From: Anaerolineaceae bacterium
GTDB lineage: Bacteria > Chloroflexota > Anaerolineae > Anaerolineales > Anaerolineaceae
Assembly (NCBI GenBank): GCA_017417055.1
Contig: JAFPZX010000174.1
Coordinates: forward strand, 1 to 64,000
Direction: 5' to 3'
Length of the DNA: 64,000 nucleotides
The notes under the pieces were generated by a model, which saw only the letters and a program-made list of their open reading frames with translations, was not told the DNA's origin and did not search any database. The translations under genes were made by a program, and so were the position numbers. Positions 1,289-15,301 of this stretch are shown piece after piece (the first letter of the stretch is position 1; each line of letters opens with the position of its first letter).

Positions 1289-1320
1289 CCTGATCCCCGA
1301 CACCTATAACCTGAAACCTA
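1276..1320. repeat. Degenerate heptanucleotide repeat at MATE gene end
   Basis: Units of seven bases are visible: CCTGATC, CCCGACA, CCTATAA, CCTGAAA, CCTATGC. Read on the minus strand this is a TAGGTTTCAGGT-type repeat, and its TAG is the stop codon of the MATE gene. Confidence 0.6.
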
Positions 1321-2676
1321 TGCCACCAGGTTCACCACCCATTTTCCGCTTTTGTACCGGACAAAAAAGATCACCAGCTTGACGATCTCTTCCGAAACGA
1401 TACCGAAATAAGCCCAGTAAACCGGCAGTCCGAAATGAAACGCCAGCAGTCTGGCAACCGGAACACCGATCACCCACATGACGATCGTTTCGATGATCAG
1501 GCAAAAAACAGCCTGGCCGCCCGGCCGCAGGATCCCGATGATCAGCGTGTAATTGGAAGTCCGCGCCCACAGGATAGCAGCCGCTACAGCCAGCAGCTTT
1601 ACCGCGAAAACACGAGCCTCATCGGAAAGGTTATATAAGCCGATGATCGGTTCCCGCAGCCCGAACAGCACCAGCCCGGTCAGAACAGCCGCACAGAAGG
1701 AAAGGAACAGCGTATATTTGGCATAACGTTTGGCTGTCTCCAGTTTGTTGCCTCCCAGCAGGTTCCCGATCAGCACCGCGCAGGCATCACCGACCCCGAT
1801 GAAAAGCGCCTGTGCAATGTTGTCGACCGGGTTGATGGCGCTGTAAGCGGCAATGGAAGCCGTTGAAATGCCGGCATATACCGTCGCGTAGGCATTCGTC
1901 CCCAGTCCCCACAAGGTTTCGTTGACAATCACCGGCGCGGCATTTTTCAATACCATCACAATCAGTGATCCGCTGAAGCGGAACATCTCCCGGGGTACAG
2001 CGGCCGTCGGCAGTTTGCGGATATAGGTGATAAAGATATAAAGAAAGGCCTCAAATGCCCGGGCGATCACCGTGGCAGCTGCCGCGCCGACCAGTCCGAG
2101 CTTCGGAAAACCGAATTTTCCGAAAATAAACAGGTAATTCAGCAGCGCGTTAAGGAGCAGTGTCAATCCGGAAATCAGCATCGGTGTGCGGGCATTCCCG
2201 GTGCAGCGCAGCGCGCCGGAATAGATCTGCCCCGTCGGAAACAGCAGGAAAACCGCGGAAATGATGCGCAGATAAACGATCCCGCTTTCGATCACCGCTT
2301 CATCCTTTGAGTAAATGCGCAGGATCTCCCGCGGGAACAGCTGGGAAACCACGAGAAAGCAGATCCCGACAATAAAGGTGAACATGAATTGAATCCCCAT
2401 CACATGATGGATACTTTTCACATCCTTTTTGCCCCAAAACTGCGCATTCAGCACGTTTCCGCCGGAGATGGTCCCGAATATGATCATGCTGAACAAAAGG
2501 TAAAACTGGTTGACCAGGTTCACCGCGGAAAGCGTCACATCGCCAAAGGAACCGATCATCATCGTGTCCAGCAGGTTCACGGAATAGGTGATGACCTGTT
2601 GGATGATGAGCGGCAGCGCGATAACAAATAACCGGCGCAGATATTTTTTGTCTTGAAAAATTTCTTTTATCATCAT
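1318..2676 (-). CDS. MATE-family multidrug/cation antiporter
   Basis: Integral membrane efflux protein of the MATE (NorM/DinF-like) family, expected to export drugs or metabolites using an Na+ or H+ gradient. The 452-residue length is typical and about twelve hydrophobic segments are visible. The N-terminus carries the family pattern of a cytosolic start followed by IALPLIIQQV and DTMMIGSFGD, with the pseudo-symmetric second half starting near ALFIGVGDACAVLIGN. It begins 5 bp after the metalloprotease stop, so it is probably the last gene of the operon. Two consecutive ATGs open the frame and neither has a strong ribosome site, suggesting translational coupling. The stop codon falls within a heptamer repeat. 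Substrate cannot be read from sequence. Confidence 0.93.
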   Translation of the reverse strand: MMIKEIFQDKKYLRRLFVIALPLIIQQVITYSVNLLDTMMIGSFGDVTLSAVNLVNQFYLLFSMIIFGTISGGNVLNAQFWGKKDVKSIHHVMGIQFMFTFIVGICFLVVSQLFPREILRIYSKDEAVIESGIVYLRIISAVFLLFPTGQIYSGALRCTGNARTPMLISGLTLLLNALLNYLFIFGKFGFPKLGLVGAAAATVIARAFEAFLYIFITYIRKLPTAAVPREMFRFSGSLIVMVLKNAAPVIVNETLWGLGTNAYATVYAGISTASIAAYSAINPVDNIAQALFIGVGDACAVLIGNLLGGNKLETAKRYAKYTLFLSFCAAVLTGLVLFGLREPIIGLYNLSDEARVFAVKLLAVAAAILWARTSNYTLIIGILRPGGQAVFCLIIETIVMWVIGVPVARLLAFHFGLPVYWAYFGIVSEEIVKLVIFFVRYKSGKWVVNLVA

Positions 2677-2681
2677 AAGAT

Positions 2682-3602
2682 TTAAAGCCGTTTCGCGTTT
2701 TTTTGAATAAAAGCCTGTGCACGCTCATAGTCGGGGTGCCGTTTTTCGAAATCCCGGAATTCTTTGGTGTGAGCCACACGGCGGGCGCCGCTGGTCTTTA
2801 CCCCCAGTGCTTTGTGAAGCAGCTCATGATACATCACAAAATCCAGAACGTAAGCAGGGACGTCACTGCGGTCCAGACCGCGGTTGATCATCAGCGTATC
2901 CTCCTGGATATTATAGGAGCCCATGGTGGAATGGTTCACCCGCGGCGACCAGTGGATCACCTTTGGACGCGGCATTTTCCCGCCAAAACAGCGTTGGCTG
3001 CAGGCTCTGAAGACTTCTTCCAGATCATAATAGCGGCCTCGGGTTTGATTTCCATGCGTCGGATTGGCCTTGACTGACTGAAAATGCGCACTTAACTCCC
3101 GGCTCTGCGGCGTTTTTTCCTGATACTCCGCAAGCATCCTTTTCAAATCGGTCCATTTTCTTTGCCTGATAAATTGAGCAAAGCGCTTGCAGTCATATTC
3201 ACTCAAATAGTCCAGTGCCTCATGGATCTGGATCTCTGTTTTTCCCGGTACCGGTTTGATGGAGTACAATTTGGACGAATACGGATAAATTTCCAGTGAG
3301 AATTTGTTGATTCCCAGCTGCTGGTTCAAATGGCCGAGCAGCCGCCTTCTGTGCAACAGGTTCAGGGAATAATTCTGCCAATCCGCCAGCCAGCGGATCC
3401 AGGCATTGAACAACAGATAGTAATTGCTCAAGCCATCTTCATCCGCGGGCAGGTTGTCCATGATATGAACAATCAGGTCGTAGGTTTTTTCCGTTTCCTG
3501 TTCCAGCATATAATTCGGAGCCAGCGCGGTCCCGTTCAAAAGGACATTCAGCTCCGTCATCGCCTGTCCAGCTGAAATGGTTTGTTGTTTTTCTTCTGCC
3601 AT
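2682..3602 (-). CDS. SprT-like zinc metalloprotease (HELLH)
   Basis: Predicted cytoplasmic zinc metallopeptidase of 306 residues. The catalytic motif YHELLHKALG puts zinc ligands at His259 and His263 and the general base at Glu260; His278 in HTKEF is the likely third ligand. The preceding GSYN...TLMINRGLD...VPAYVLDFV stretch is the strand-helix layout of SprT-like domains. Residues 1-~190 are helical and unrecognised, so the domain sits at the C-terminus of a larger protein. A ribosome site (GGGAG) precedes the ATG. It lies 13 bp after the helical-repeat/propeller gene and 5 bp before the MATE gene. In this operon it could be the effector of an ATPase-controlled system, but that is inference; a DNA-protein crosslink role like SPRTN is an alternative. 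Confidence 0.8.
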   Translation of the reverse strand: MAEEKQQTISAGQAMTELNVLLNGTALAPNYMLEQETEKTYDLIVHIMDNLPADEDGLSNYYLLFNAWIRWLADWQNYSLNLLHRRRLLGHLNQQLGINKFSLEIYPYSSKLYSIKPVPGKTEIQIHEALDYLSEYDCKRFAQFIRQRKWTDLKRMLAEYQEKTPQSRELSAHFQSVKANPTHGNQTRGRYYDLEEVFRACSQRCFGGKMPRPKVIHWSPRVNHSTMGSYNIQEDTLMINRGLDRSDVPAYVLDFVMYHELLHKALGVKTSGARRVAHTKEFRDFEKRHPDYERAQAFIQKNAKRL

Positions 3603-3615
3603 CTCTCCCTATCCC

Positions 3616-5793
3616 CTAATCAAACTCCAGCTCAATGTCAAAGCGGCGGCGCCAGGAAACGACGGTTTTCAGCCAGGCGGCAGCAGCCTTCACTCCCGGT
3701 TCCGGATATTTTTTCACAAATTCGTCAATGCGGTTCAGTCCCGGCAGCTGTGCGAACGGTATGATCCGGGTCATTTCCCGGAACAGACCCAAATCCCAGC
3801 TGCGGACCGCTCCGGCGGAGTTACTGCTATACAGCACTGATGTCCTTTCGTCATACCAAAGCCCTGTCACCGCCGCCTTACTCCCAAAAGAAAGAACTGC
3901 GGGAAAATTCTCCGGCGTCGGGTCAAAAACGCGGACCTGTCCGTCAAGACATCCGAAGGCAAACAATTCGCTTTCGAAAAGCGGCACGATCCGCCGAACC
4001 TTTCCCGAATTATACAGATTCTTTTTGAAAACAGCCTTACCGCTGAGCAGATTGTAAAGAGAAAAGACTTCCTCTCCTTCAATCACACCCAGCCGGCTGA
4101 ATTGAAATTCCTCAGCCGCAGCCGCTTCAGCGTCTCCAAAGCGGACACTGTTCAGCAGCCGTTTTCCGTTCAGATCATAAACCGAACAGATGCCGTCCAT
4201 CGTGATCCCGCAAATCCGGACGCTCTCCTCCTCATAGGCAGCCCTGGTACAGTCTTTCAGTCCAAGGTCGAAGGCAAATAATTCTGTTCCGCCCGGAAAT
4301 GAAAAAACATTTCCCTGCCCGTTTTGATTCAAAACGATCAGCCGCCTGTCATCTGTTTGAAGGTACAAACCGACCGGCAATGTATTCCCAACGGCAATTG
4401 TTTTTACCGCCTGCCCACCGGGAAGTGAGAAAACCGTCAGCCCGTCCCTGCCGCAGTCCGCGCAGAGGTATTTCCCGTCATGGCTGATGACCGCGCGACG
4501 GAAATTCAGATGATTGGAAGTAATGCGAATCGGGGCTGACAGCTCATCCCGGGTGTCCCAGACAAGGATCTTGCGGTCCGCGTACAGAACGGCAAAGTAA
4601 GAACCTCCGCCGCAGATCCCGACGGCCGTCCCATAACCTTCTCCATAACGCATTCGAACCGGAACCGGAGACAGGTTCTCACAAGCCTTGATTTTTTCAC
4701 TTAGCTCCGCGAAAAATAGCTCTTCATCTGCGCGTGCAGGTTCAAACCCGGCTTCATGGAGTGCTTTTACCACATTGGTCATACACAGCAGCGGCAGATT
4801 AGGCAGAGCTTCCCATAGCCGCTGCCATTCACGCTGTTCAATCAGTGAGGCAGCAAACAGATGCTGATCGGTGAGCGTACCGCTGTGCGTCATGTTCTCC
4901 GAACTGCCGCCCACTTCCCTCAGCCAGGCACTGTTCCCGGAATCCCGGCTGACCGTTATCAGCCGGCGCTGCAGCACAGGATTTTTGCCTTCATAGGCGA
5001 TCCGGATGCGCCGGTAGTCACTGTCGGAGGCATAATACTGTTCCCACTGGCTGCTGAGAAAGTAAAACAGCGCCTGCTGTGCAGGGTCGGAAGGGAGCAA
5101 TCCATTCTTCACACAAAGTTCACGGACAAATTCATCGTCATAGCTCAGCAGAATATCCGCAGGCAGCGAGGAAATCTTCGTCTCTTTTCCAATACAAAAA
5201 CGCAGCAGTTTCCGCTCATCCGGAGAGAATGATTGAAAACTATCCAGAAGTTTTGTCCGATTCTCGGGTGAGGGGTCATTCAGAAAGCGCATGAGCGTAC
5301 ACCAGTTGGGGATCACCTTTTCACCCAGTGTCAGCAGCCGCTGCCGCAGGGCCTGCCCTTCCGCCAGGAATAATTCCGTCAGCTGTTCCGCCCCCGGATC
5401 ATCACGCATCAACTGGTGTTTCTGTTCAAACAGAAGCTGACGCGCGCTGTTCCATCCCGGGTCCCGATCCTGAGCATCTGTTTTTCGTAAAAAGGAAGCC
5501 GCTTCCGGATTTCCGTCCAGCACCGCCAGTTCGTAAAGGTCATGAACCGCTTTTTCCTGAACGTCACCGGGAAAACGGGCAAGATTTTCAAGCGCAGCCA
5601 TCGCCCGCAGTCTGCTTTCCGGCGCCGGCGCATGACGGACTGTATCCAGCAGGCCTTTATGATCCTCTTCCTCAAAAAGCAGTGTGACCGTCCCAATGCA
5701 GGCGGCACGGTACAGATCCTGCGGGGAAAGCTGATCGGAAATTTCAGGCAGTCTCAAAAATCCACGGTACCGGAGGATATCATTTGTTTCCAT
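3616..5793 (-). CDS. Helical-repeat plus WD40-like beta-propeller protein
   Basis: A 725-residue cytoplasmic protein with no signal peptide. Residues 1-~370 are alpha-helical with HEAT-like pairs (for example RLRAMAALENLARFP). Residues ~385-690 show repeating strands of about 40 residues typical of a beta-propeller, with blades ending in motifs such as KILVWDT, LTVFSL, CSVYDL, VRVFDP and VRSWDL. Such proteins are scaffolds, and no catalytic motif was seen. The start ATG has a good ribosome site (AGAGGAACC). It is packed between the DUF1257 gene (12 bp) and the HELLH protease (13 bp). ATPase/propeller combinations are known in bacterial NTP-dependent conflict systems, so a sensor or assembly role is plausible but unproven. 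Confidence 0.82.
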   Translation of the reverse strand: METNDILRYRGFLRLPEISDQLSPQDLYRAACIGTVTLLFEEEDHKGLLDTVRHAPAPESRLRAMAALENLARFPGDVQEKAVHDLYELAVLDGNPEAASFLRKTDAQDRDPGWNSARQLLFEQKHQLMRDDPGAEQLTELFLAEGQALRQRLLTLGEKVIPNWCTLMRFLNDPSPENRTKLLDSFQSFSPDERKLLRFCIGKETKISSLPADILLSYDDEFVRELCVKNGLLPSDPAQQALFYFLSSQWEQYYASDSDYRRIRIAYEGKNPVLQRRLITVSRDSGNSAWLREVGGSSENMTHSGTLTDQHLFAASLIEQREWQRLWEALPNLPLLCMTNVVKALHEAGFEPARADEELFFAELSEKIKACENLSPVPVRMRYGEGYGTAVGICGGGSYFAVLYADRKILVWDTRDELSAPIRITSNHLNFRRAVISHDGKYLCADCGRDGLTVFSLPGGQAVKTIAVGNTLPVGLYLQTDDRRLIVLNQNGQGNVFSFPGGTELFAFDLGLKDCTRAAYEEESVRICGITMDGICSVYDLNGKRLLNSVRFGDAEAAAAEEFQFSRLGVIEGEEVFSLYNLLSGKAVFKKNLYNSGKVRRIVPLFESELFAFGCLDGQVRVFDPTPENFPAVLSFGSKAAVTGLWYDERTSVLYSSNSAGAVRSWDLGLFREMTRIIPFAQLPGLNRIDEFVKKYPEPGVKAAAAWLKTVVSWRRRFDIELEFD

Positions 5794-5805
5794 GGTTCCT
5801 CTCTG

Positions 5806-6186
5806 TCAATACGCAGTCCGCCGCAGAACAAGATGGATCTGCTGTTTTTCGTCCCGTGTTTCCTCTGTAACCAGGAAGCCCTGATTTTCGAGAGACTGCT
5901 TTACGGAAAGATAGGCGTAACGCTGTTTCAGCCGGTTTTCAAATTGTTTCCGGTCCATGTTCACACGGAACCAGTCCGCGGTCAGCTGCCAGCCATTTTT
6001 TCCCTTACGGAACCCGATGGAATCAGTATAGGGCACTTTAACGAGAAAATCGACCTTCACCGTTTTTACCCCGTTGGTAATGCGAAGGTCATCACCCTGT
6101 TCGGTTTCATAGCCAAGATCCGCGAGCGCCCGCTTCAGCAGCTCCCGGTCGGCAAAAGCAATTTTCATGACAGAAATATGTGACAA
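5806..6186 (-). CDS. DUF1257 (Ycf35-like) protein
   Basis: Small cytoplasmic protein, 126 residues from the chosen start. It matches the DUF1257 pattern seen in plastid and cyanobacterial Ycf35: an N-terminal MSHISVMK followed by DRELLKRALADLGYE, then strands ending in DSIGFRKGKNGWQLTADW, then RLKQRYAYLSVKQSLENQGF and a terminal LVLRR. I chose the TTG at 6184-6186 because it gives the canonical MSH- start and lies 6 bp from an AAGGA ribosome site; a TTG two codons upstream overlaps that site. The start is 14 bp after the methylase stop. The function of DUF1257 is unknown. Its co-occurrence with a Ycf46-like ATPase mirrors the conserved cyanobacterial gene set. Confidence 0.88.
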   Translation of the reverse strand: MSHISVMKIAFADRELLKRALADLGYETEQGDDLRITNGVKTVKVDFLVKVPYTDSIGFRKGKNGWQLTADWFRVNMDRKQFENRLKQRYAYLSVKQSLENQGFLVTEETRDEKQQIHLVLRRTAY

Positions 6187-6200
6187 AACCAATCCTTTTT

Positions 6201-7160
6201 CTAAAACAAGCTTGGCTGAGGAACAATCTTCTCTATATTTGAACGATGTGCTGTCTTGTTGCGTATTAATATCCGAAAATATGTAGGTTTGCCATTTATT
6301 CTCAGATCCTTGTTATCATCACCTTTTCGGAATTTGATAATTTCAAATTGATCCGGATTAAATCTATGAAGGAAAGTAACAGGAACCCCCATAACACCGG
6401 AAAAATCCGCAGGAATATCTTTTGTCTTATTAACATTTATACCGAAATAATTATCGTAAAATGGATATTCATCCTCATTTCCCTCGTAGACTTTTACCAA
6501 TTCTATTGACTCGTGTCTTTTTTCGTTATCAAGATTTGTCAGCCACATGCAGTTATTTGGGGAAATGATTCGTTCTCCAGTTTTTTTTACTTCGGTTTCA
6601 AGTCCATACAGTTCATAATCATCCGGTACGATAAAGCCTGAAATACCTCTTCCAAAATTTATCCCAAGCCAAACTTTATTTGCCTGTATCAGCGCAAAAA
6701 CTTCTTTATAGGTAATAGCATTGATATTACTGATAATCAAAAATTTCTTCTCAAAATCAGACAATTGTCTTATATAATCACGGAAAAGTGAAAAAGGTGG
6801 ATTCGTTATTACAACGTCACTTTCCTGAAGGATCTTGACACAGTCCCTGCTTCGAAAATCCCCATTCCCAACCAATTTCGTTTTTATAATGTTTACACCA
6901 TCATACCGATAATAATATGCGTCATTCCCATAATAAGTTGCATTCAATGCCTTCAGTCCTAATTTTTCAAAATTATCATAAAAATATTTCCAAAAATTAG
7001 AAAAATCCGGATTATCACAATTACAATAGACAATTTTGTCCTTTAAAAGATGTGTATAATGAGTCAATTCCTTTTCAATATCAATTAACTGCGTATAAAA
7101 CTCATCCTTTTTATTCATTTTGGCATTGTCCAGCAGTGAATGGTCAATCATCCGTTTCAT
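6201..7160 (-). CDS. EcoRI-type adenine-N6 DNA methyltransferase
   Basis: Modification enzyme predicted to methylate the inner adenine of GAATTC. The 319 residues align with M.EcoRI (326) over essentially the whole length: DEFYTQ near the start, KIVYCNCDNP with SNFWKYF, GDFRSRD, the catalytic NPPFSLFRDY at 120-129, KFLIISN, WLGINFGRGISGFIVP, RIISPNNCMWLTNLD, NVNKTKDIP and GVMGVPVTFLHRFNP. The ATG at 7158-7160 is preferred over the TTG before it because AAGGAT lies 7 bp upstream and the distance to DEFYTQ then equals that in M.EcoRI. It follows the endonuclease gene by 12 bp, the same R-then-M order as in EcoRI. The gene is clearly more AT-rich than its neighbours, a sign of horizontal transfer. 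Confidence 0.96.
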   Translation of the reverse strand: MKRMIDHSLLDNAKMNKKDEFYTQLIDIEKELTHYTHLLKDKIVYCNCDNPDFSNFWKYFYDNFEKLGLKALNATYYGNDAYYYRYDGVNIIKTKLVGNGDFRSRDCVKILQESDVVITNPPFSLFRDYIRQLSDFEKKFLIISNINAITYKEVFALIQANKVWLGINFGRGISGFIVPDDYELYGLETEVKKTGERIISPNNCMWLTNLDNEKRHESIELVKVYEGNEDEYPFYDNYFGINVNKTKDIPADFSGVMGVPVTFLHRFNPDQFEIIKFRKGDDNKDLRINGKPTYFRILIRNKTAHRSNIEKIVPQPSLF

Positions 7161-7172
7161 CAAACTGTATCC

Positions 7173-8006
7173 TTATTTATGTGTTATCTGTGCAAATAAG
7201 TCTTTTCCCAGCATTTTCAAAGATGTTTTTGCTATATCAAGCATAATTTCTGTCATCTCAGTTCTGCCCCAGCGTTCACCATTACCCTTTGTATAAATGG
7301 ATGCTGCCTGGAGCATTATGTTTTTTCCATTTACTGAAATAAATTTGTTTTCACAAAGATTTTTATTAATTGGCATTCCATAATTTGATGCAGTCAATCG
7401 GTCTAAACGGTTTAATGCTCCGGACCGATATTTAAGTGTGACTTCTCTTCCGTCAGGTCTTATTATTGTTATATCTTTTGTTATAAAATTAGAACCTTCT
7501 AAAAATAAAATATATGGAAAATAACTTTCAGCAAGCATATAATTTGCAATTTCCGAAATATTCTTATATGCACGTTCAATTGCATTACCGGCGGTCATTA
7601 AATCCTGATTATTATTTGTTCCGACAAGAGTACCTGCTCGAATGTTTTCGATATCTTTCCCCTGATATTTCGCTTCAGAAACAAGAATAACACGCCATTG
7701 CCCATAATCATCTCTGACTTCTAACAAGCCTCCATCCGGTTTGATTTCTGCTTTTTCGACAAATAATGTTTGTCCCAGAGATTTATCAATTTTCTGTAAA
7801 GAGGCATTGATTTCCTGTTTTAATATAGATTTGCGATACCGAAATGACAACGCTGGATAATCTTTTTCTAACAGTGCCTGTACGGATTTCGAAATATTTG
7901 ATACTTTTGTATCATGAAATTTCGTCTCGTTATTTAGAATACCAGATACACCATGAGACCCTTTTTGTTGTTCCGTTAATCTGTCAGACAAATTTTTATC
8001 TTTCAT
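7173..8006 (-). CDS. EcoRI-type restriction endonuclease (GAATTC)
   Basis: Type II restriction enzyme predicted to cut unmethylated GAATTC. With the start at the ATG at 8004-8006 it has 277 residues, the length of EcoRI, and catalytic residues fall at the same numbers: Asp91 (IKPDGG), Glu111 and Lys113 (SEAKYQ). Other matches to EcoRI are DRLTEQ near the start, LSFRYRKSI, the recognition loop AGNAIERAYKNISEIAN, FPYILFLEGSNF, LNRLDRLTASNYGMPIN and MLQAASIYT. The reading frame is open 18 codons further upstream, but GAGGT ends five bases before this ATG and the homology begins here. AT-rich composition contrasts with the flanking operon. No separate controller (C) gene is seen, as in classical EcoRI. 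Confidence 0.97.
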   Translation of the reverse strand: MKDKNLSDRLTEQQKGSHGVSGILNNETKFHDTKVSNISKSVQALLEKDYPALSFRYRKSILKQEINASLQKIDKSLGQTLFVEKAEIKPDGGLLEVRDDYGQWRVILVSEAKYQGKDIENIRAGTLVGTNNNQDLMTAGNAIERAYKNISEIANYMLAESYFPYILFLEGSNFITKDITIIRPDGREVTLKYRSGALNRLDRLTASNYGMPINKNLCENKFISVNGKNIMLQAASIYTKGNGERWGRTEMTEIMLDIAKTSLKMLGKDLFAQITHK

Positions 8007-8088
8007 CATATACCTCATAATATTATCCTGACTGTTGCATTTCGTAACGAAGCTCAACAAATGTTTAGAAACGAGAAAAAGTCTTTTT

Positions 8089-8120
8089 ACTCCTCATTCC
8101 TCACTTCTCACTTCCAACTC
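8089..8120. repeat. Degenerate heptanucleotide repeat at AAA ATPase gene end
   Basis: Units CCTCATT, CCTCACT, TCTCACT, TCCAACT are visible. On the minus strand they encode the last residues and stop of the AAA ATPase (VRSEE then stop), as does the similar repeat at 40473-40503 for an unrelated gene. Confidence 0.6.
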
Positions 8121-9638
8121 AATCTGAATTGGGACGAATTGCGACTCCGCGTCGGCAGCATCGGAGAAGGAAGCGGACTGTGCCCGGCCTTCCCGCAGCC
8201 AGCTGCGCAGTTTTTCGATCTGTTCCCGCTGTGAAACCGAAAGCGGCACCTGGTGACGCAGCGCGTGCAGTATATCATCTGTGGTAAATTCCCGGGCCTG
8301 ATCATTGAACCCGATGTACATCGCGTCGATCACGGCCTGCTCAATTTCCGAACCGACAAACCCTCGGGAAGCTTTGGCGAGTTTATCCAGGTCAAACATT
8401 TCCGGGAGACGGGCACGTTTGAGAATGTGGACTTCAAAGATTTCCCGTCGTTCCTTTTCCGTCGGCAGGTCCAGAAAAAAGATCTCATCAAAACGGCCGC
8501 GGCGCAGCAGTTCAGGCGGCAGCGCCGTCACATCATTAGCTGTAGCCACCACAAAAACCGGAGCCGTTTTTTCCTGCATCCAGGTCAGAATATTCCCGAA
8601 AACCCGGGTGCTGGTTCCACTGTCCAGCCCGCCATGGGAAAGCGCCTTTTCCAGTTCATCGATCCATAAAATACAGGGAGCGATGATTTCGACAACGGAA
8701 AGTGCCCTGCGGACCCGTTCTTCCGACTCACCGACCAACGACCCGAAGAGCGCCCCCACATCCAGCCGGATCAGCGGCAGATGCCAGAGACGGCTGATCA
8801 TTTTGGCGGTCAGGGACTTCCCAGTTCCGGGGATCCCGATCAGCGCGATGCCTTTCGGCGCCGGAAGACCATATGCCCGGGCTTCACTGCTGAAGGCTTT
8901 TTCGCGCAGGTTCAGCCAGTGTTTGAGCTCCCCCAGCCCACCGACAGAATCCGGTGTTTCCGATGCTTCAGTAAACTCCAAAGCTTCGATATCCCGGATC
9001 AGCTGTTTTTTCTCACGCATCACAAAGTCGATATCCTCATCGCTCAGTTTTCCATCGGTGACGATCGCTTTGGCAAACACCCGCTGCGCCTGGGATGCTG
9101 TCAGTCCCAGCGCGGCCTGCAGCAGTTTTTCCTTTCCCGCGGGACTCAGGGTGATGCTGACGCCCGGGGTGAGCTTTAATTTATCCAGAACCGCTTCCAG
9201 CGTTTTGACGTTTGGCAGCGGATAGTCCATCACCACACATTCATTAACCAGTTCCGCGGGAATTTCAGCGGCCGGTGCTGTGATCAAAATTGATTTGCGT
9301 GTATATTTCAGACTTCTCGCCAGACTGCGCAGCCGGCGCTTCACGGCCGGATTATCCCAGCAGTCATGGAAATCATGAAGAATAAACAGCGCCGGCTCAT
9401 CCGCGTCAGCTTTGTCGATTTGTTCCAGGACGGAAAGCGGATCACGGCCGCCGGCGGGCGCAGCTTTTCCGACCAGAAGATGAAACCCTTCCGCCAGATC
9501 CCATCCGATACAATTCCGCCCGGTGTTCCGGCAAAGCGTTTTCAGATCCTCTGTGACTCGTTCCTCTTCGGCTGAAATCACCAGGATCAGCGTCGCTTTT
9601 CCGCGCAGGCTGAGGTCAATTTCCTGTATAAATTCCAT
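8094..9638 (-). CDS. Ycf46-like AAA+ ATPase
   Basis: Cytoplasmic AAA+ ATPase of 514 residues resembling plastid/cyanobacterial Ycf46. Residues 1-~230 form a degenerate N-terminal ATPase-like domain (KATLILVISAEEERV; LFILHDFHD). The active module follows: Walker A GIPGTGKS at 268-275, pore-loop region around 297-305, Walker B ILWIDE at 323-328, sensor 1 VVATAND, and an arginine finger in LLRRGRFDE at ~379. I trimmed the start to the ATG at 9636-9638, which has AAGGAT 7 bp upstream and begins 4 bp after the TPR gene; a longer frame would overlap that gene by 119 bp. The C-terminal VRSEE comes from a heptamer repeat. The next gene is the EcoRI cassette, then the DUF1257 gene, its usual partner. 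Confidence 0.92.
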   Translation of the reverse strand: MEFIQEIDLSLRGKATLILVISAEEERVTEDLKTLCRNTGRNCIGWDLAEGFHLLVGKAAPAGGRDPLSVLEQIDKADADEPALFILHDFHDCWDNPAVKRRLRSLARSLKYTRKSILITAPAAEIPAELVNECVVMDYPLPNVKTLEAVLDKLKLTPGVSITLSPAGKEKLLQAALGLTASQAQRVFAKAIVTDGKLSDEDIDFVMREKKQLIRDIEALEFTEASETPDSVGGLGELKHWLNLREKAFSSEARAYGLPAPKGIALIGIPGTGKSLTAKMISRLWHLPLIRLDVGALFGSLVGESEERVRRALSVVEIIAPCILWIDELEKALSHGGLDSGTSTRVFGNILTWMQEKTAPVFVVATANDVTALPPELLRRGRFDEIFFLDLPTEKERREIFEVHILKRARLPEMFDLDKLAKASRGFVGSEIEQAVIDAMYIGFNDQAREFTTDDILHALRHQVPLSVSQREQIEKLRSWLREGRAQSASFSDAADAESQFVPIQIELEVRSEE

Positions 9639-9642
9639 GGCT

Positions 9643-10968
9643 TTATCCTTCGCGTGAACTGTTTTCGATGATCGTTTCATCTTCTTCGGCTTTACCCTCC
9701 GAGTCACCATCCGGTGAAGGTGTATCCGTAGGTACGGTGACCAGGACGATATCAAAATCACCTTCCTTACAGACTTCCGTCATGTATTCCGCGTTCAAAA
9801 CCGCGGTTGCGTCATCCGGTACGCCCTGTGTGAGCAGACGGACCACTTCCGCGGCTTCCTGACACTGACCGGAGCGGGCAAGGATCAGCCCATACATATA
9901 ATACAACTCAGGAACGCGGTTGTCATAGGAAAGAGGAATGCCCTGGACCACAGCGCCATCCTGTCCGATCCCGCCCTGGATCGAGATGCGGAAGTAATCC
10001 AGCGCTTTGGCGTAGTCTCCGGAACGGTAATATTGCGTTCCCAGGTTCCAGTAGAATTGGGTTTCCGTCGGATCCAGTTCAATAGCGTCCTCGCCCTGCT
10101 GGATCGCTTTGGTGTATTCACCGTTGGAGGCATAAGTACGGGAAATATAGTACGGCGCCCAGGGATCATACGGGTTGAGCGTGGAAGCCCGTTCAAACGC
10201 GGTGATGGCTTCCGTATCCATCCCGTTCGCCCGGTAAGCACGACCCAGCGCCAGGTAAAGGTCCGCGATATTCGGATTGATGGCAATCGCGATCTGGAAT
10301 TCGGTGACCGCTTCTTCATAGTTACCCGTAATTTCCAGCAAAAAACCGCGGGCGCGATGGGATTCCATCAGCGTGTTGCCCAGGCTGATCGCCTGACGGG
10401 AGTTTTCCGTCGCCTGGGTCAGTGTATCCAGACGGTCTTCCCCGGCGTTGATTTGCTGCACCAGCACTTCCGTCTGGTAGGCATAGGCCAGTGCCAGGTT
10501 TGGATTCAGTTCCTTCGCCCGGTTGAATGCGGTCTGTGCATCCAGATAATTGCCCTGCATCCCGATTGCCCAGCCGCGTACCGCGTGAGCCTCCGCATTG
10601 TTGGGGTTGAGCAGAATCGCGTTTTCCGCATTGGTCAGGGCGTTCGCGTAATCACCGCTGAAAACCTGCAGTTTTGCAAGAGCTATATAGGTGTTGATGT
10701 TCTTCGGATCAGCATTGATGGCCTGCTGGTACATTTCAATCGCGCGGGAAATACGTCCTTCCGCGTATAGGCTTTCCGCCTGGTTCAGGTAGGCTTCCGG
10801 CGGCGTGGTGGGCGTAGGGGTAGGAATGAATAATGGGTCCGTGTTCGGGACAATATTAATGGCATAATACAAACCAACGCCAACCAGCGCCATCAGGATC
10901 AGGATCCGGATGGGACTGGAGCGCTTCCGCTTTGAACTGTAATTGTAAGATGATCCTTTTAAATACAT
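9643..10968 (-). CDS. Membrane-anchored TPR protein
   Basis: A 441-residue protein with a short basic N-terminus (SSKRKR), one membrane segment at ~21-41 (IRILILMALVGVGLYYAI), a proline/threonine-rich linker, and about eight tetratricopeptide repeats from residue ~58 to ~390 (consensus pieces A..AEGRISRAIEMYQQAINADP and AIAINPNIADLYLALGRAY). The tail after ~405 is acidic and disordered. The topology suggests a single-pass protein with repeats outside the membrane. TPRs mediate protein binding; the partner is unknown. It starts 8 bp after the Rrf2 regulator and ends 4 bp before the Ycf46-like ATPase, so it is co-transcribed with them. Confidence 0.9.
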   Translation of the reverse strand: MYLKGSSYNYSSKRKRSSPIRILILMALVGVGLYYAINIVPNTDPLFIPTPTPTTPPEAYLNQAESLYAEGRISRAIEMYQQAINADPKNINTYIALAKLQVFSGDYANALTNAENAILLNPNNAEAHAVRGWAIGMQGNYLDAQTAFNRAKELNPNLALAYAYQTEVLVQQINAGEDRLDTLTQATENSRQAISLGNTLMESHRARGFLLEITGNYEEAVTEFQIAIAINPNIADLYLALGRAYRANGMDTEAITAFERASTLNPYDPWAPYYISRTYASNGEYTKAIQQGEDAIELDPTETQFYWNLGTQYYRSGDYAKALDYFRISIQGGIGQDGAVVQGIPLSYDNRVPELYYMYGLILARSGQCQEAAEVVRLLTQGVPDDATAVLNAEYMTEVCKEGDFDIVLVTVPTDTPSPDGDSEGKAEEDETIIENSSREG

Positions 10969-10976
10969 ACTTCCAC

Positions 10977-11414
10977 TTATATGACGTAACTGTCGATATT
11001 GATATCCCGATGCTGGTCAACGATGTCCTGCAGCGTGATGCTGTCCAGATAATCATTGACGACTTTATTCAATCCCTTCCAGACGGGATATGTCGCGCAG
11101 ATCCCGCAGCGTTCACATTCAATTGGGTTCTGTTCCGCACACTCAACCGGCGCAAGAGAGCCTTCTGTGAGACGCAGAATTTCACCCACTGTGTATTTAT
11201 CCGGCGTCCGCGCCAGCATGTATCCACCCTGAGCGCCGCGGTTCACGCGCAGCATGTCGGTCTTGTTGAAGATCAGAATGATTTGTTCCAGATATTTTTT
11301 TGAAATTCCCTGACGGGTTGAAACTTCCTTCAGCGGAATAAACCCTTCATTCTGATGTTCGGCAAGATCGACCAGCATGCGCAGTGCGTATCGTCCCTTG
11401 GTAGATATTTTCAT
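10977..11414 (-). CDS. Rrf2-family transcriptional regulator
   Basis: DNA-binding regulator of 145 residues. It has the Rrf2 signature MKISTKGRYALRMLVDLA, the winged helix ending in GISKKYLEQIILIFNK and the wing RGAQGGYMLAR. Between residues ~92 and 108 lies a cysteine cluster (C-AEQNPIE-C-ER-C-GI-C) comparable to the three-cysteine Fe-S loop of IscR/NsrR/RsrR, so iron-sulfur or redox sensing is likely; CymR-type members lack it. There is no iscS/iscU nearby. As first gene of the run into the TPR/AAA/EcoRI/DUF1257/propeller/protease genes, it may autoregulate that operon through the palindrome at 11440-11450. Confidence 0.93.
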   Translation of the reverse strand: MKISTKGRYALRMLVDLAEHQNEGFIPLKEVSTRQGISKKYLEQIILIFNKTDMLRVNRGAQGGYMLARTPDKYTVGEILRLTEGSLAPVECAEQNPIECERCGICATYPVWKGLNKVVNDYLDSITLQDIVDQHRDINIDSYVI

Positions 11415-11439
11415 GGCTTCATCTCCATTCCGTTAATCA

Positions 11440-11450
11440 GATAGTCTATC
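11440..11450 (-). promoter_or_regulatory. Candidate Rrf2 operator/promoter
   Basis: The 58-bp gap before the Rrf2 gene holds an 11-bp palindrome (GATAG-A-CTATC on the minus strand) next to TATGAT, a possible -10 element, 25-40 bp from the start codon. Placement over a promoter is what an autorepressor needs. It is short and could be chance. Confidence 0.35.
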
Positions 11451-11472
11451 ATACTTTTGCGGGATTTGCACA

Positions 11473-12507
11473 TTACGAGGCATCTTCGATCAGAACCTGC
11501 ATAATCCCGCCGCAGACCATTCCGTCATTTTCCGCCACATCTCCGGTCATGTCGATCCTGTTCAGCAGATAACGGCCGGTGCCGATAAGCTTCACCGCTT
11601 TCCGAATCACAGCCGCTTCGCTGCAGCCGCCGCCGATGCTGCCCGTGGTTTTCCCCAGCGGAGAAACAGCCATCTTAGCTCCGGCGCCGCGGGGGGTGGA
11701 GCCTTTGGTTTCCAAAACGGTAACGATTGCTTTCGGCTCGGTGTTTTCCGCCAAATATGCCAGAACCGGGATCTCCACATCCGAATCATTGCAAAAGCGG
11801 CTCCCGCTTGCGTATTCCGGCAAACGGCGGTAGGAGATGATTTCCGCCATGATGGAAACCGCGATCTCATTCGGAGTGACCGCGCCGATGTTCAGCCCGA
11901 TCGGCGTACAGATATGGCTCAGCTTTTCCCGGTCAAAACCTTCTTCCGCAAGCAGCTCCAATAAGGCTTTTACCCGCCGTTTGGAGCCGATCATCCCGAG
12001 ATAAGCCGGCTGCGTTCCCGGCAGGATCGCCCGCAGGCAGTCCGCATCGCTGCGGTGGCCGCGGGTAATGACCACGACATAATCAAACGGCGTGACAGCA
12101 AAATTTTGAATCGCGTTTTCAAAACTGCCGCAGATCACGGTTTCTGCCATTGGGAAGCGCTGGTAATTGGCAAATTCCGGCCGGTCGTCAGCCACACAGA
12201 CCGTGAAACCGCATTTCGCGCCGATTTCACTGACGGGAAGCGCCACATGTCCGCCGCCCAGAATGATCAGGCGTTCCGGCGGCATGATGGGTTCCGTTAC
12301 GGTGATCACATCGCCTTCCGTTTCCACTGTAAGGCGTGTTGACAATCTGCCGCGGGAATCCGCTGTCGGTTCCGCTTTGACAAATTCACGGGTCACATTT
12401 TCTGCGATGCTGCCTTCGGTGCCGTGAAAAGTCGTTTTCAGTGCTGTCGGTTGATTCCTTTTTATCTGTTCAATGATTTTTCCGTAAACGTTCATGGTTT
12501 CTATCAT
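11473..12507 (-). CDS. XdhC/CoxI-family protein with reversed domain order
   Basis: A 344-residue homologue of XdhC, the factor that helps insert sulfurated molybdenum cofactor into xanthine dehydrogenase-type enzymes. Residues ~78-220 are the Rossmann XdhC_C domain (LIILGGGHVALPVSEIG; VVVITRGHRSDADCLR; YLGMIGSKRRVK). Residues ~250-340 are the XdhC_CoxI domain (VLETKGSTPRGAGAKMAV; GSIGGGCSEAAVI; CGGIMQVLIED). In canonical XdhC the CoxI part comes first, so this order looks permuted. No molybdenum hydroxylase gene is in the window. Two in-frame ATGs (12507, 12495) are possible; neither has a strong ribosome site. Confidence 0.88.
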   Translation of the reverse strand: MIETMNVYGKIIEQIKRNQPTALKTTFHGTEGSIAENVTREFVKAEPTADSRGRLSTRLTVETEGDVITVTEPIMPPERLIILGGGHVALPVSEIGAKCGFTVCVADDRPEFANYQRFPMAETVICGSFENAIQNFAVTPFDYVVVITRGHRSDADCLRAILPGTQPAYLGMIGSKRRVKALLELLAEEGFDREKLSHICTPIGLNIGAVTPNEIAVSIMAEIISYRRLPEYASGSRFCNDSDVEIPVLAYLAENTEPKAIVTVLETKGSTPRGAGAKMAVSPLGKTTGSIGGGCSEAAVIRKAVKLIGTGRYLLNRIDMTGDVAENDGMVCGGIMQVLIEDAS

Positions 12508-12516
12508 CTAAAAAAA

Positions 12517-12576
12517 GAACGGGGACGGTTTTGCGCGAAGCGCAGAACTGTCCTCCTGTTTTCATGGAAATTTACA
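12517..12576. repeat. Family D dispersed repeat
   Basis: Between dnaK and the XdhC-like gene lies GGGGACGGTTTTGCGC-GAA-GCGCAGAACTGTCCTCC followed by TTTTCATGGAAATT and TTAATTAATT. The GGACGGTTTTGCGC / GCGCAGAACTGTCC arms form an imperfect hairpin. Near-identical cores occur at 16227, 39629 and 63401. It may also end dnaK transcripts, though no U-tract follows. Confidence 0.7.
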
Positions 12577-14352
12577 TTAATTAATTCCTGCTGCGGAACG
12601 GATATTCGCAGAGGAGTCTTCCAGCCGCTGCATGGCGCCGCGAAGCTCAGCCAGTTCCGATTCCGTCATCTTTTCCGGTTTGTACTTTGTTGCCAGTTTG
12701 CGGAGCTCATCCAGGTCGGACTTTACCCGCTTTTTCTCGTCTTTGTCAAAATCTTTCGGTGCGTTGTGCATGGCATTGTCCACTTTCGCGATCAATGCTC
12801 CGGCTTCCTGCAGCACCGTCATCGTATCCCTGCGGAACTGATCCTGAGAAGCGTACATTTCCGCGTCATGGATGGCGGCATTGATCTCCGCGTCGGACAT
12901 GCGGTCATTGGCTGTGATGGTGATGGACTGCTGTTTTCCTGTGTCCAGATCCTTTGCGGAAACAGTCAGGATGCCGTTTGCGTCAATATCAAAGGTGACT
13001 TCGATCTGCGGCACACCTGCCGGGGCTCGTTTGATCCCGTTCAATCGGAACTTCCCGATGGTCTTGTTGTCCGCTGCCATCGGCCGCTCGCCCTGCAATA
13101 CGTGAATATCCACGGAGCTTTGGAATGGGGCGACGGTGGAAAACACCTGGGAATAATGGATCGGCAGCGTGGAGTTGCGTTCCACCAGCCGGGTCGCGAC
13201 ACCGCCGACGGTTTCAATGGAAAGGCTCAGCGGTGTAACGTCCAGGAGTAAAATCCCGCCGGTCGTCCCGGCCAGTTCCATTTTCCCACCGGAAAGGGTA
13301 TCACCCTGAATCGCGGCACCCTGCGCCACACATTCATCCGGGTTGATGTTTTTGGATGGGATGATCCCGGTCATCATGCGGACTTTATCCTGTACCGCGG
13401 GGATGCGCGTGGAACCGCCCACCAGCAGGACCTTACCCAGTTCGGAGGGAGCGATGCCTGCGTCATCCAGCGCGTTCTGCACCGGGACAGCCGTCCGTTC
13501 AATCAGGTCATGGATCAGCTCTTCGAATTTCGCCCGGGAAAGGCTCGTTTCATAATGGATCATCTGCCCGCGGTGTTCGGCGAGATAAGGCAGATTGATG
13601 GACGTCGTCACAGCCGATGAAAGCTCTTTTTTCGCCTGTTCGGCTGCTTCCTTGATACGCTGGATCGCAGTCAGGTTTTTGCTGATATCCGCGCCAAAAC
13701 GGTTCTTGATGTCGTCCAGGATGTATTTCATAATGCGGGCATCGAAGTCATCTCCGCCCAAGTGATTGTCGCCGTTGGTCGCCAGCACTTCGATCACGCC
13801 GTCGCCGATTTCGATGATCGAGACGTCAAACGTGCCGCCGCCGAGGTCGTACACCATGATCTTTTGTGCGGCGCCGTTGTCCAGACCGTAAGCCAAAGCG
13901 GCACTGGTCGGTTCGTTGATAATACGTTTTACATTAAATCCTGCAATTTTTCCAGCATCTTTGGTTGCCTGACGCTGGATATCATTGAAATAAGCGGGGA
14001 CTGTGATGACCGCGTCGGTGACCGGTTCACCCAGATAGGCCTCCGCATCCTGACGCAGTTTGCGCAGGATCATCGCGCTGATCTCCTGCGCGGAAAAGTT
14101 TTTCCCGTCAATATTGATGTGCCAGTTCGTGCCCATCTGCCGCTTTACCGAGGTGACAGTCCGTTCCGAATTGACTGCCGCCTGCCGCGCTGCGCTGACG
14201 CCGACCAGACGTTCTCCGTCTTTGGTAAAAGCCACGATGGAGGGAGTAGTGCGTGTTCCTTTATCGTTCGGGATGATGATCGGCCGTCCGTTTTCTACGA
14301 CGGACATGCACGAGTTCGTTGTTCCAAGATCAATGCCTATTGTTTTTCCCAT
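12577..14352 (-). CDS. dnaK: Hsp70 chaperone DnaK
   Basis: ATP-driven protein-folding chaperone, 591 residues, slightly shorter than typical DnaK (610-640). The nucleotide-binding domain shows [10 protein letters not shown] at 6-15, the [12 protein letters not shown] phosphate loop and [12 protein letters not shown]. The linker [10 protein letters not shown] leads to the substrate domain, followed by a helical lid that stops after IRSAAGIN without the usual glycine/glutamine-rich tail. It lies directly downstream of a J-domain protein (97 bp gap), so the pair is likely co-expressed. grpE and canonical dnaJ are absent here, and I see no CIRCE element, so this may be a second, specialised DnaK. 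Confidence 0.97.
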
Positions 14353-14389
14353 GAGTGTTCGTGTTCCTTTCTTGTTTCAGCAGTCAACC

Positions 14390-14418
14390 GGGGACTGTCC
14401 CTTCAAGGGACTGTCCCC
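14390..14418. repeat. GGGGACTGTCCC hairpin between J-protein and dnaK genes
   Basis: GGGGACTGTCCCTT and CAAGGGACTGTCCCC form a near-palindrome with a small mismatch in the ACTGT step. It lies in the 97-bp gap between the two genes and resembles the ends of family D repeats. An mRNA-processing or attenuation role is possible but untested. Confidence 0.5.
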
Positions 14419-14449
14419 ATTATTGGAAAGTTATTCGTACCGGTTTTCC

Positions 14450-15301
14450 CTAAAAGTAAAATCCAAAGCCCAGGAAGAGCCGCAGGATCATGAAGATAAA
14501 CTGGATAACGATGTAGCTGATGAAAATCTTACTCACAATTCCCAGAACACTGCGGCCGCCGCTGTCGCCTCTGCCGCTGGTGTAAGTGTACGTCCGGTAG
14601 GGACTGGAGCTGGAACGGTTACGGTACTGGCGCAGCAGGCTGTGATAGAGCTGATTATTGGGATCCAGCTGCACTGCGCGCTGCATCATATCCACATCCC
14701 GCGGGGAATTTCCCATGCCATGATTGGCCATTGCGCTGAGATAATACCAGCGGGCATTGCGTCCGGTGGAAGGGATTTTTGTCAGGATCACGATCGCTTC
14801 GCGGTAATTTCCGGCGTTAATATAACTGATGGCATTCCGAATTTCTGCCGAATCTCCCGCTTCAGGCTGCGGTTTGCTGCTGGCAGTTGTACTTTGATAC
14901 GGGCTGGCGCCGCCAAAGAAAATGTCTTCCCAGTTGAAAAAGTCTCCTGTCCAGCCGTAATCACCTTCGTATGTGGTACGGCGGTATTGACCGCTGCCGG
15001 ATTGTCCCGCGCTTCCGTAAGGGCTGCCATAAGAACCGCTGTACGATCCTCCGTAAGAAGAGCTTCCGGCAGAAGACGTGTTGGAATAGGCACTCTGCCG
15101 TGCACGCTGTGCGGCATATTTGTCCGGATTCATCAGCATGTCATAAGCGGTGTTGACATCGTTCATCTTCTGATTGGCCTGCGGATCGTCCGGATGGAGA
15201 TCCGGATGGTACAGCTTGGCCATCTTTCGATATGCTTTTTTGATTTCGTCTTGTGTCGCGTCCCGGGGAACCCCAAGGACTTTATATGGATCGTCTATCA
15301 T
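14450..15301 (-). CDS. Membrane-anchored J-domain co-chaperone
   Basis: J-domain protein of 283 residues that should stimulate the ATPase of the DnaK encoded just downstream. The J domain covers ~4-68 (DPYKVLGVPRDATQDEIKKAY; HPD motif at 32-34). A Ser/Gly/Tyr-rich linker of about 70 residues follows, then a small helical TPR-like segment (~150-220; ISYINAGNYREAIVIL), a serine/arginine stretch and a C-terminal membrane segment (~258-280). There is no cysteine-rich zinc finger or DnaJ C-terminal domain, so it is not canonical dnaJ. The J domain should face the cytoplasm and recruit Hsp70 to the membrane. The ATG has GGAAAGAAG in front. Confidence 0.93.
   Translation of the reverse strand: MIDDPYKVLGVPRDATQDEIKKAYRKMAKLYHPDLHPDDPQANQKMNDVNTAYDMLMNPDKYAAQRARQSAYSNTSSAGSSSYGGSYSGSYGSPYGSAGQSGSGQYRRTTYEGDYGWTGDFFNWEDIFFGGASPYQSTTASSKPQPEAGDSAEIRNAISYINAGNYREAIVILTKIPSTGRNARWYYLSAMANHGMGNSPRDVDMMQRAVQLDPNNQLYHSLLRQYRNRSSSSPYRTYTYTSGRGDSGGRSVLGIVSKIFISYIVIQFIFMILRLFLGFGFYF

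Follow-up and report, generated by a model that had tools for sequence, protein, structure and literature searches.

The first 64,000 nucleotides of contig JAFPZX010000174.1 from an Anaerolineaceae bacterium (assembly GCA_017417055.1; this whole stretch is the window) carry, at positions 2682..11414, a run of genes that an earlier note took to be one uncharacterised ATPase operon. Comparison with relatives leaves little doubt that the functional unit is not that operon but a set of six: a Ycf46-like AAA ATPase, a DUF1257/Ycf35-like protein, a HEAT-WD40 scaffold, an Hsp70-like ATPase (Hsp70L), the tiny cysteine-bearing DUF2997 and a small radical-SAM/4Fe-4S protein. The window carries one half of this module, the AAA, DUF1257 and scaffold genes of the supposed operon, and the other half is elsewhere in the same genome; Hsp70L, DUF2997 and radical SAM are invisible in the window because they sit on other contigs. 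The remainder of the run, namely an Rrf2 regulator, a TPR protein, a SprT-like metalloprotease, a MATE exporter and an inserted EcoRI cassette, look like local neighbours. Genomes and loci are designated by G and L numbers below.

The unit is seen intact in other genera of the family. DUF1257 was sought in 147 Anaerolineaceae genomes and found in 38, and all 38 neighbourhoods were annotated with our own hidden Markov models (HMMs); of 400 genomes sampled across the phylum five have it, four of these being from this family. At the 25 loci of other genera, some of them truncated by contig ends, the members detected are co-directional and always in a single order: AAA (19), large HEAT-WD40 (12), Hsp70L (25), DUF1257 (25), DUF2997 (24), radical SAM (23), HEAT-WD40 (21) and an MFS transporter (13). 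Most intergenic gaps (111/137) are between -20 and 30 bp, and the six of about 0.5 kb all separate the large HEAT-WD40 gene from Hsp70L. AAA is on a separate contig in G112, G113, G050 and G054, and L071 has DUF2997 without radical SAM. The radical SAM gene follows DUF2997 at 23 of the 25 loci and in 12 of 13 genomes of the window's genus; its CX3CX2C motif is present in 29/29 relatives and is seen in the window genome's copy too, and a cysteine of DUF2997 is invariant. Pfam identity checks covered L048 (all members except DUF2997), the radical SAM and Hsp70L of L051, the plasmid and phage DUF2997, and the three partners in the window's genome. G101 has in addition a second, diverged AAA...DUF1257-DUF2997 locus, and G445, from another family, a similar one (L041 and L072); these have 1.8-2.6 kb from AAA to DUF1257, and no radical SAM was found within the stretch.

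Within the window's genus the unit is split over two or three loci, and 13 of 14 genomes, the window's among them, retain AAA, DUF1257, DUF2997 and Hsp70L. AAA, DUF1257 and HEAT-WD40 are grouped at all 13 genus loci, two of which have the EcoRI cassette between AAA and DUF1257; in L039 AAA is broken into two frames, and in L046 the contig end truncates it. Hsp70L, DUF2997 and radical SAM are adjacent in eight genomes of the genus. Among the five genomes of the window's subgroup DUF2997 and Hsp70L are on different contigs; radical SAM accompanies DUF2997 in four, and in the fifth DUF2997 is at a contig end. In the window genome, G000, DUF2997 and radical SAM are at L093:8180-8386 and 7628-8179 (contig C103) and Hsp70L is at L094:9138-10688 (contig C172). 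There DUF2997 scores 58.7 bits against a Pfam cut-off of 24.1, Hsp70L scores 78.8 against 20.6 for HSP70, covering positions 105-373 of 599 only, and the radical SAM protein scores 103.1 against 22 for Fer4_12 and falls just short for Radical_SAM (28.7 against 29.5). Loss of these three genes from the genus was considered and rejected, since they were located on other contigs, and because they were found there the set is seen to be kept across genomes despite break-up of the operon. At 10 of 12 genus loci, the window genome's included, radical SAM is followed by a membrane protein (L093:5763-7469 in the window genome) with two thioredoxin-like CxxC stretches, CPHC and CSHC, whose Pfam thioredoxin score is below the cut-off.

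The four genes tracked through the 147 genomes come and go together. DUF1257 is in 38, DUF2997 in 37, and Hsp70L and AAA in 39 each; 36 genomes have all four, 106 have none and five have part (G009, G031, G053, G056 and G071), with pairwise Fisher P values of 1e-28 to 1e-34 that ignore relatedness. G041, of the same genus and 98% complete, has none of the four and is a natural joint absence of the module. In a main-DnaK tree of 30 genomes, retained as loci out of 61 searched, it groups within the genus with G038, which has all four (support 96/90), and the tree implies at least seven changes between presence and absence. The first G041 site reads rRNA adenine dimethylase, CYTH, another gene, SprT and ABC transporter, with AAA-DUF1257-HEAT-WD40 absent between the last two; MATE and one small gene of L042 are also missing. 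The second has a galactokinase that runs off the contig, a GDSL-type gene and the thioredoxin-like membrane protein, and Hsp70L-DUF2997-radical SAM is absent. Inspection of the two sites for gene relics gave nothing significant. The joint absence of both halves, with SprT kept, is the best evidence for membership of the unit.

The motor is p97-like. In the window it is encoded on the minus strand, as are all genes of the run, at 8094..9638 (1e-27); the longest open reading frame (ORF) extends to 9761, and the start is probably at 9638 (Met 42), leaving a 4-bp gap after the TPR gene, because the closest relatives align only from residue 40-42. A predicted model matches p97 D1-D2 along its length. 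There is a single P-loop, in the C-terminal half, and the N-half is predicted to fold like D1; the C-terminal half appears D2-like and active, the N-half D1-like and degenerate. The Walker A, Walker B, sensor-1 and arginine residues are intact in 44/44 sequences. The likeness to p97/Cdc48 has limits: the first AAA half is without a P-loop where p97 has two nucleotide-binding AAA domains, the adaptor-binding N-domain is missing (residue 1 of the model corresponds to p97 residue 210), and the module is bacterial with Hsp70-like and radical SAM partners. Pfam and NCBIfam returned no Ycf46 model, and the name is presumed from the architecture and the linkage to DUF1257.

Of the other two core genes in the window, DUF1257 (5806..6186; 5e-17) opens with a TTG start giving MSHISV and passes the PF06868 cut-off with 62.6 bits against 22.2 over model positions 1-103 of 103. 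The scaffold (3616..5793) is fast evolving, aligned segments being about 19-34% identical beyond the close subgroup; its WD40 signal is weak and below the Pfam cut-offs, its relative L048:6852-9095 is above them (PF00400, 3.8e-33), and its HEAT part is inferred, such repeats being matched solely in the paralogue L048:11917-14631.

PMC4284462 equates DUF1257 with ycf35 and lists a cyanobacterial cluster DUF2997-ycf35-fed7. Like the module it has a DUF1257-DUF2997 pair adjoining an Fe-S protein, but as listed there a ferredoxin replaces radical SAM and there is neither Hsp70L nor HEAT-WD40 in the cluster. According to passages of PMC5940233, two freshwater red algae lack ycf35 and ycf46 in their plastids, along with ycf34, ycf37, grx and pbsA, while a marine one has them, and the wording seems to report no function for the ycf genes. 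From the present locus and its relatives Ycf46 is predicted to be a p97-like ATPase whose first domain is inert, and the partners they suggest for plastid Ycf35/Ycf46 are an Hsp70-like ATPase, DUF2997, an Fe-S protein and a HEAT-WD40 scaffold. The genes of the module are here shown in bacteria beyond photosynthetic lineages. Literature searches found no published description of the module, and as far as they go its partner set is undescribed.

What the six proteins do is held much less firmly than that they belong together. The earlier note had offered protein remodelling or conflict, and of the two remodelling fits best: the module may be a p97-like protein-remodelling machine with an Fe-S arm, a statement that, taken whole, falls a little short of probable. 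The AAA would form a hexamer of two rings, the D1-like one inert and the D2-like one consuming ATP, that pulls a client through its pore; Hsp70L and the HEAT-WD40 scaffold would hold the client or present it, with DUF1257 and DUF2997 as an adaptor pair, and the Fe-S protein (ferredoxin in the cyanobacterial cluster) would act by redox or radical chemistry, either on DUF2997's invariant cysteine or on the client itself.

A narrower possibility, on the doubtful side, is that the module matures or reactivates one particular radical or Fe-S enzyme. By analogy with Rubisco activase and diol dehydratase reactivase, which open their clients, AAA and Hsp70L would open the enzyme, the short, activase-like radical SAM protein would install or repair its cofactor, and DUF2997 would be a small partner. 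The invariant motif of radical SAM and its near-constant place after DUF2997 are as this would have it, as is the ferredoxin gene of the cyanobacterial cluster (PMC4284462). The thioredoxin-like membrane protein, for all its sub-threshold match, also points this way, but its gene is elsewhere in G005, G006 and G069 and is kept in G041. Against it, no client enzyme gene was noticed among the members found, the flanks having had no systematic search, and Chloroflexota, cyanobacteria, phages and plasmids have no obvious client in common.

The genes also recur on mobile elements. AAA relatives (E up to 1e-60) are in 69 plasmid records, and in nine of 11 opened, hand-picked, DUF2997 and DUF1257 (or a divergent form of it) are near the AAA gene. 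The Pseudanabaena plasmid reads GrpE-Hsp70-DUF1257-...-DUF2997-AAA-WD40, its AAA being 60% identical to that of the window; further positives are from Geminocystis, Planktothrix, Nostoc, Bacillus and Paenibacillus (two, one of them AAA-DUF1257-DUF2997-4Fe-4S), and those of Rhodococcus and Paenarthrobacter have DUF2997 with a divergent CxxC-bearing DUF1257. This actinobacterial form lies between AAA and DUF2997 (L081:5908-6333 and L086:1661-2086; 2e-7 and 3e-6 with our HMM) and has an N-terminal CxxC pair, and an extra gene precedes the 4Fe-4S protein. The opened Klebsiella record has no DUF1257 or DUF2997 partner; its AAA (34% identical) is inside a VWA-AAA-CARF-PP2C-kinase cluster (L080:5710-17440). 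In Treponema succinifaciens pTRESU01 DUF1257 is within a contractile-tail-like operon (L075:8218-8625), and a 4Fe-4S protein and AAA (45% identical) are apart from it among further injection-system genes (L077:11333-13488), so that both have contractile-tail genes around them.

With tblastn DUF1257 itself is found in three plasmid records. Among 50,697 phage records it is in 12; Prochlorococcus phages account for six of these, some being records of one phage. In P-SSM2 DUF2997 overlaps DUF1257 slightly ahead of the DNA polymerase gene (L076:3802-4381). When viral contigs were scanned with the P-SSM2 protein, DUF1257 relatives appeared in 139 stretches, of which 80 loci were kept; DUF2997 is directly before DUF1257 at 76 of these cyanophage-type loci, and of the remaining four, three begin too near the contig end and one breaks off inside DUF1257. 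Cyanophages would thus carry two likely partners of Ycf46. Viral contigs L196-L198 have AAA with both DUF1257 and DUF2997, and among 25 viral AAA loci (a few near-copies, and one sharing L197's contig) each of the two is in 10 within the available stretch, some matches being weak. AAA matches occur in 54 phage records; in the one opened, a mycobacteriophage, no partner was found. Of 14 control genomes only Synechococcus elongatus gave a DUF1257 and DUF2997 signal.

This distribution allows a bolder version of the remodelling reading, which as a whole is unlikely: an ancient radical- or Fe-S-coupled p97/Hsp70-like protein-repair machine of Chloroflexota, cyanobacteria, red-type plastids (as Ycf46-Ycf35), large phages and plasmids, in which DUF2997 would provide a reactive cysteine and the cyanophage DUF2997-DUF1257 pair would commandeer host Ycf46.

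It also recalls systems of conflict, for defence or for the benefit of the phage or plasmid, that would dismantle or sense complexes of rival elements, cyanophage DUF2997-DUF1257 then re-targeting or blocking the host AAA. Patchy presence in the family, with repeated change on the DnaK tree, is as expected of such a system, as is occurrence on plasmids of Actinomycetota, Bacillota, Cyanobacteriota and Spirochaetota, on large viral contigs and in the 139 viral stretches. On two cyanobacterial plasmids an AAA_21 ATPase and a small partner, a defence-like pair in which the partner is RloB in Geminocystis, adjoin DUF1257 (L073:12430-14003 and L074:6168-8098). Even so a conflict role is quite improbable, and defence has no direct support from PADLOC, in which the EcoRI genes are type II matches and matches to AAA, TPR, Rrf2, Hsp70L and radical SAM are partial and generic only: IetA for AAA (4e-22), PDC-M61B for Hsp70L (8e-6) and pVip for radical SAM (0.009, or 1e-5 in L048), with none for DUF1257, DUF2997 or the scaffold. 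The ORFs listed for five loci showed no obvious nuclease or toxin, in a search that was not systematic, and the cyanobacterial and plastid copies are probably ordinary resident genes. The likeness to IetA/IetS, an anti-phage ATPase-protease pair, lies in the AAA and in the protease gene that the window's genus has close by; the similarity is restricted to AAA residues 292-529, SprT is unlinked to the core, and the IetS protease belongs to a different family from SprT. Kaur et al. 2020 (PMC7159879, passages) treat NTP-dependent conflict systems that share AAA and Hsp70 ATPases and propeller or HEAT scaffolds, one subset having a radical SAM enzyme, but those described in these passages are built on MoxR-vWA, GTPases or peptidase cascades; no effector set was noticed in the module, and 'ycf46' is unmatched in the text consulted.

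Taken as an operon under Rrf2 control, the earlier note's version would make Ycf46, Ycf35, scaffold and SprT protease a proteolytic system responding to stress. The note's gene positions and co-direction hold (gaps of 4-14 bp, with 33 bp separating AAA from the EcoRI endonuclease), and models match its families, namely Rrf2, TPR, AAA, the EcoRI pair, DUF1257, SprT-like and MATE. The SprT-like gene (2682..3602; 8e-6) passes PF10263 with 26.1 bits against 25.6 and has HELLH with a downstream His (HTKEF), an active site present in 11/11 genus sequences listed; it adjoins or is near the scaffold gene at all 13 genus loci, two of which are truncated by contig ends. p97 cooperates with the SprT-like protease Spartan, which together with the close gene spacing lends the idea some colour. 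Spartan-type DNA-protein crosslink repair calls for a DNA-binding region and cooperation with a p97-type unfoldase; Pfam gives the SprT protein no further domain, and SprT-AAA linkage is not seen across the family. SprT is in 30 of the 147 genomes, all 14 of the genus (G041 too) and 16 others, 14 of which have none of the four core genes, and it is apart from the module in G101 and G122. Because those core-less genomes carry it and G041 keeps it, SprT is a genus-specific neighbour and non-core, and was set aside as a machine part.

Redox or stress control through Rrf2 fares no better. The regulator (10977..11414; 1e-36) passes the Rrf2 superfamily cut-off (121.1 against 73.3) and has a cysteine cluster C-x8-C-x2-C-x2-C; it does not reach the NCBIfam IscR cut-off (115.6 bits against 207.6). 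Control of the module by an Rrf2 Fe-S protein was rejected, as Rrf2 adjoins it at two of the 13 genus loci, some of which are truncated by contig ends. TPR (9643..10968; family match, membrane anchor judged by eye) is at five, seen only in the window's subgroup, and MATE (1318..2676, beyond the 2682..11414 range; 1e-44) at eight, and both were set aside as core. The proteolytic operon is, in sum, very unlikely. That all are chance neighbours sharing a direction would suit Rrf2, TPR, MATE and perhaps SprT, but for the core it is scarcely credible given the fixed order at 25/25 loci, the keeping of the set after the operon split, the absence of both halves from G041 and recurrence on plasmids and viral contigs.

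The EcoRI-type endonuclease (7173..8060; 2e-131) and adenine methylase (6201..7163; 5e-112) form an A+T-rich cassette, of 33-37% G+C against about 49-56% in adjoining operon genes. G042 (L036) has it at the same AAA/DUF1257 junction, the proteins being 78-79% identical, and the true start of the endonuclease may be further inside its ORF because alignment with the L036 homologue begins at residue 18. DUF1257 starts with TTG at both cassette-bearing loci and with ATG in the cassette-less L034, L035 and L038. The window has 25 GAATTC sites, 16.4 being expected from base composition and 28.9 from a higher-order model. The suggestion that a restriction system landing here fits a defence context was rejected, with the cassette at two of 13 loci and GAATTC not depleted.

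Further upstream the window has a second DnaK (12577..14352, minus strand; 55% identical to the same genome's main DnaK over residues 103-577), present at the five of 13 genus loci that make up its subgroup, and adjoining it a DnaJ-domain gene (14450..15301, minus strand; DnaJ 7e-22), as also in L034, L035, L036 and L038. In this subgroup the AAA operon is downstream of TPR, second DnaK and DnaJ-domain genes (9643-15301 in the window), as if chaperone genes had regathered there after the departure of Hsp70L.

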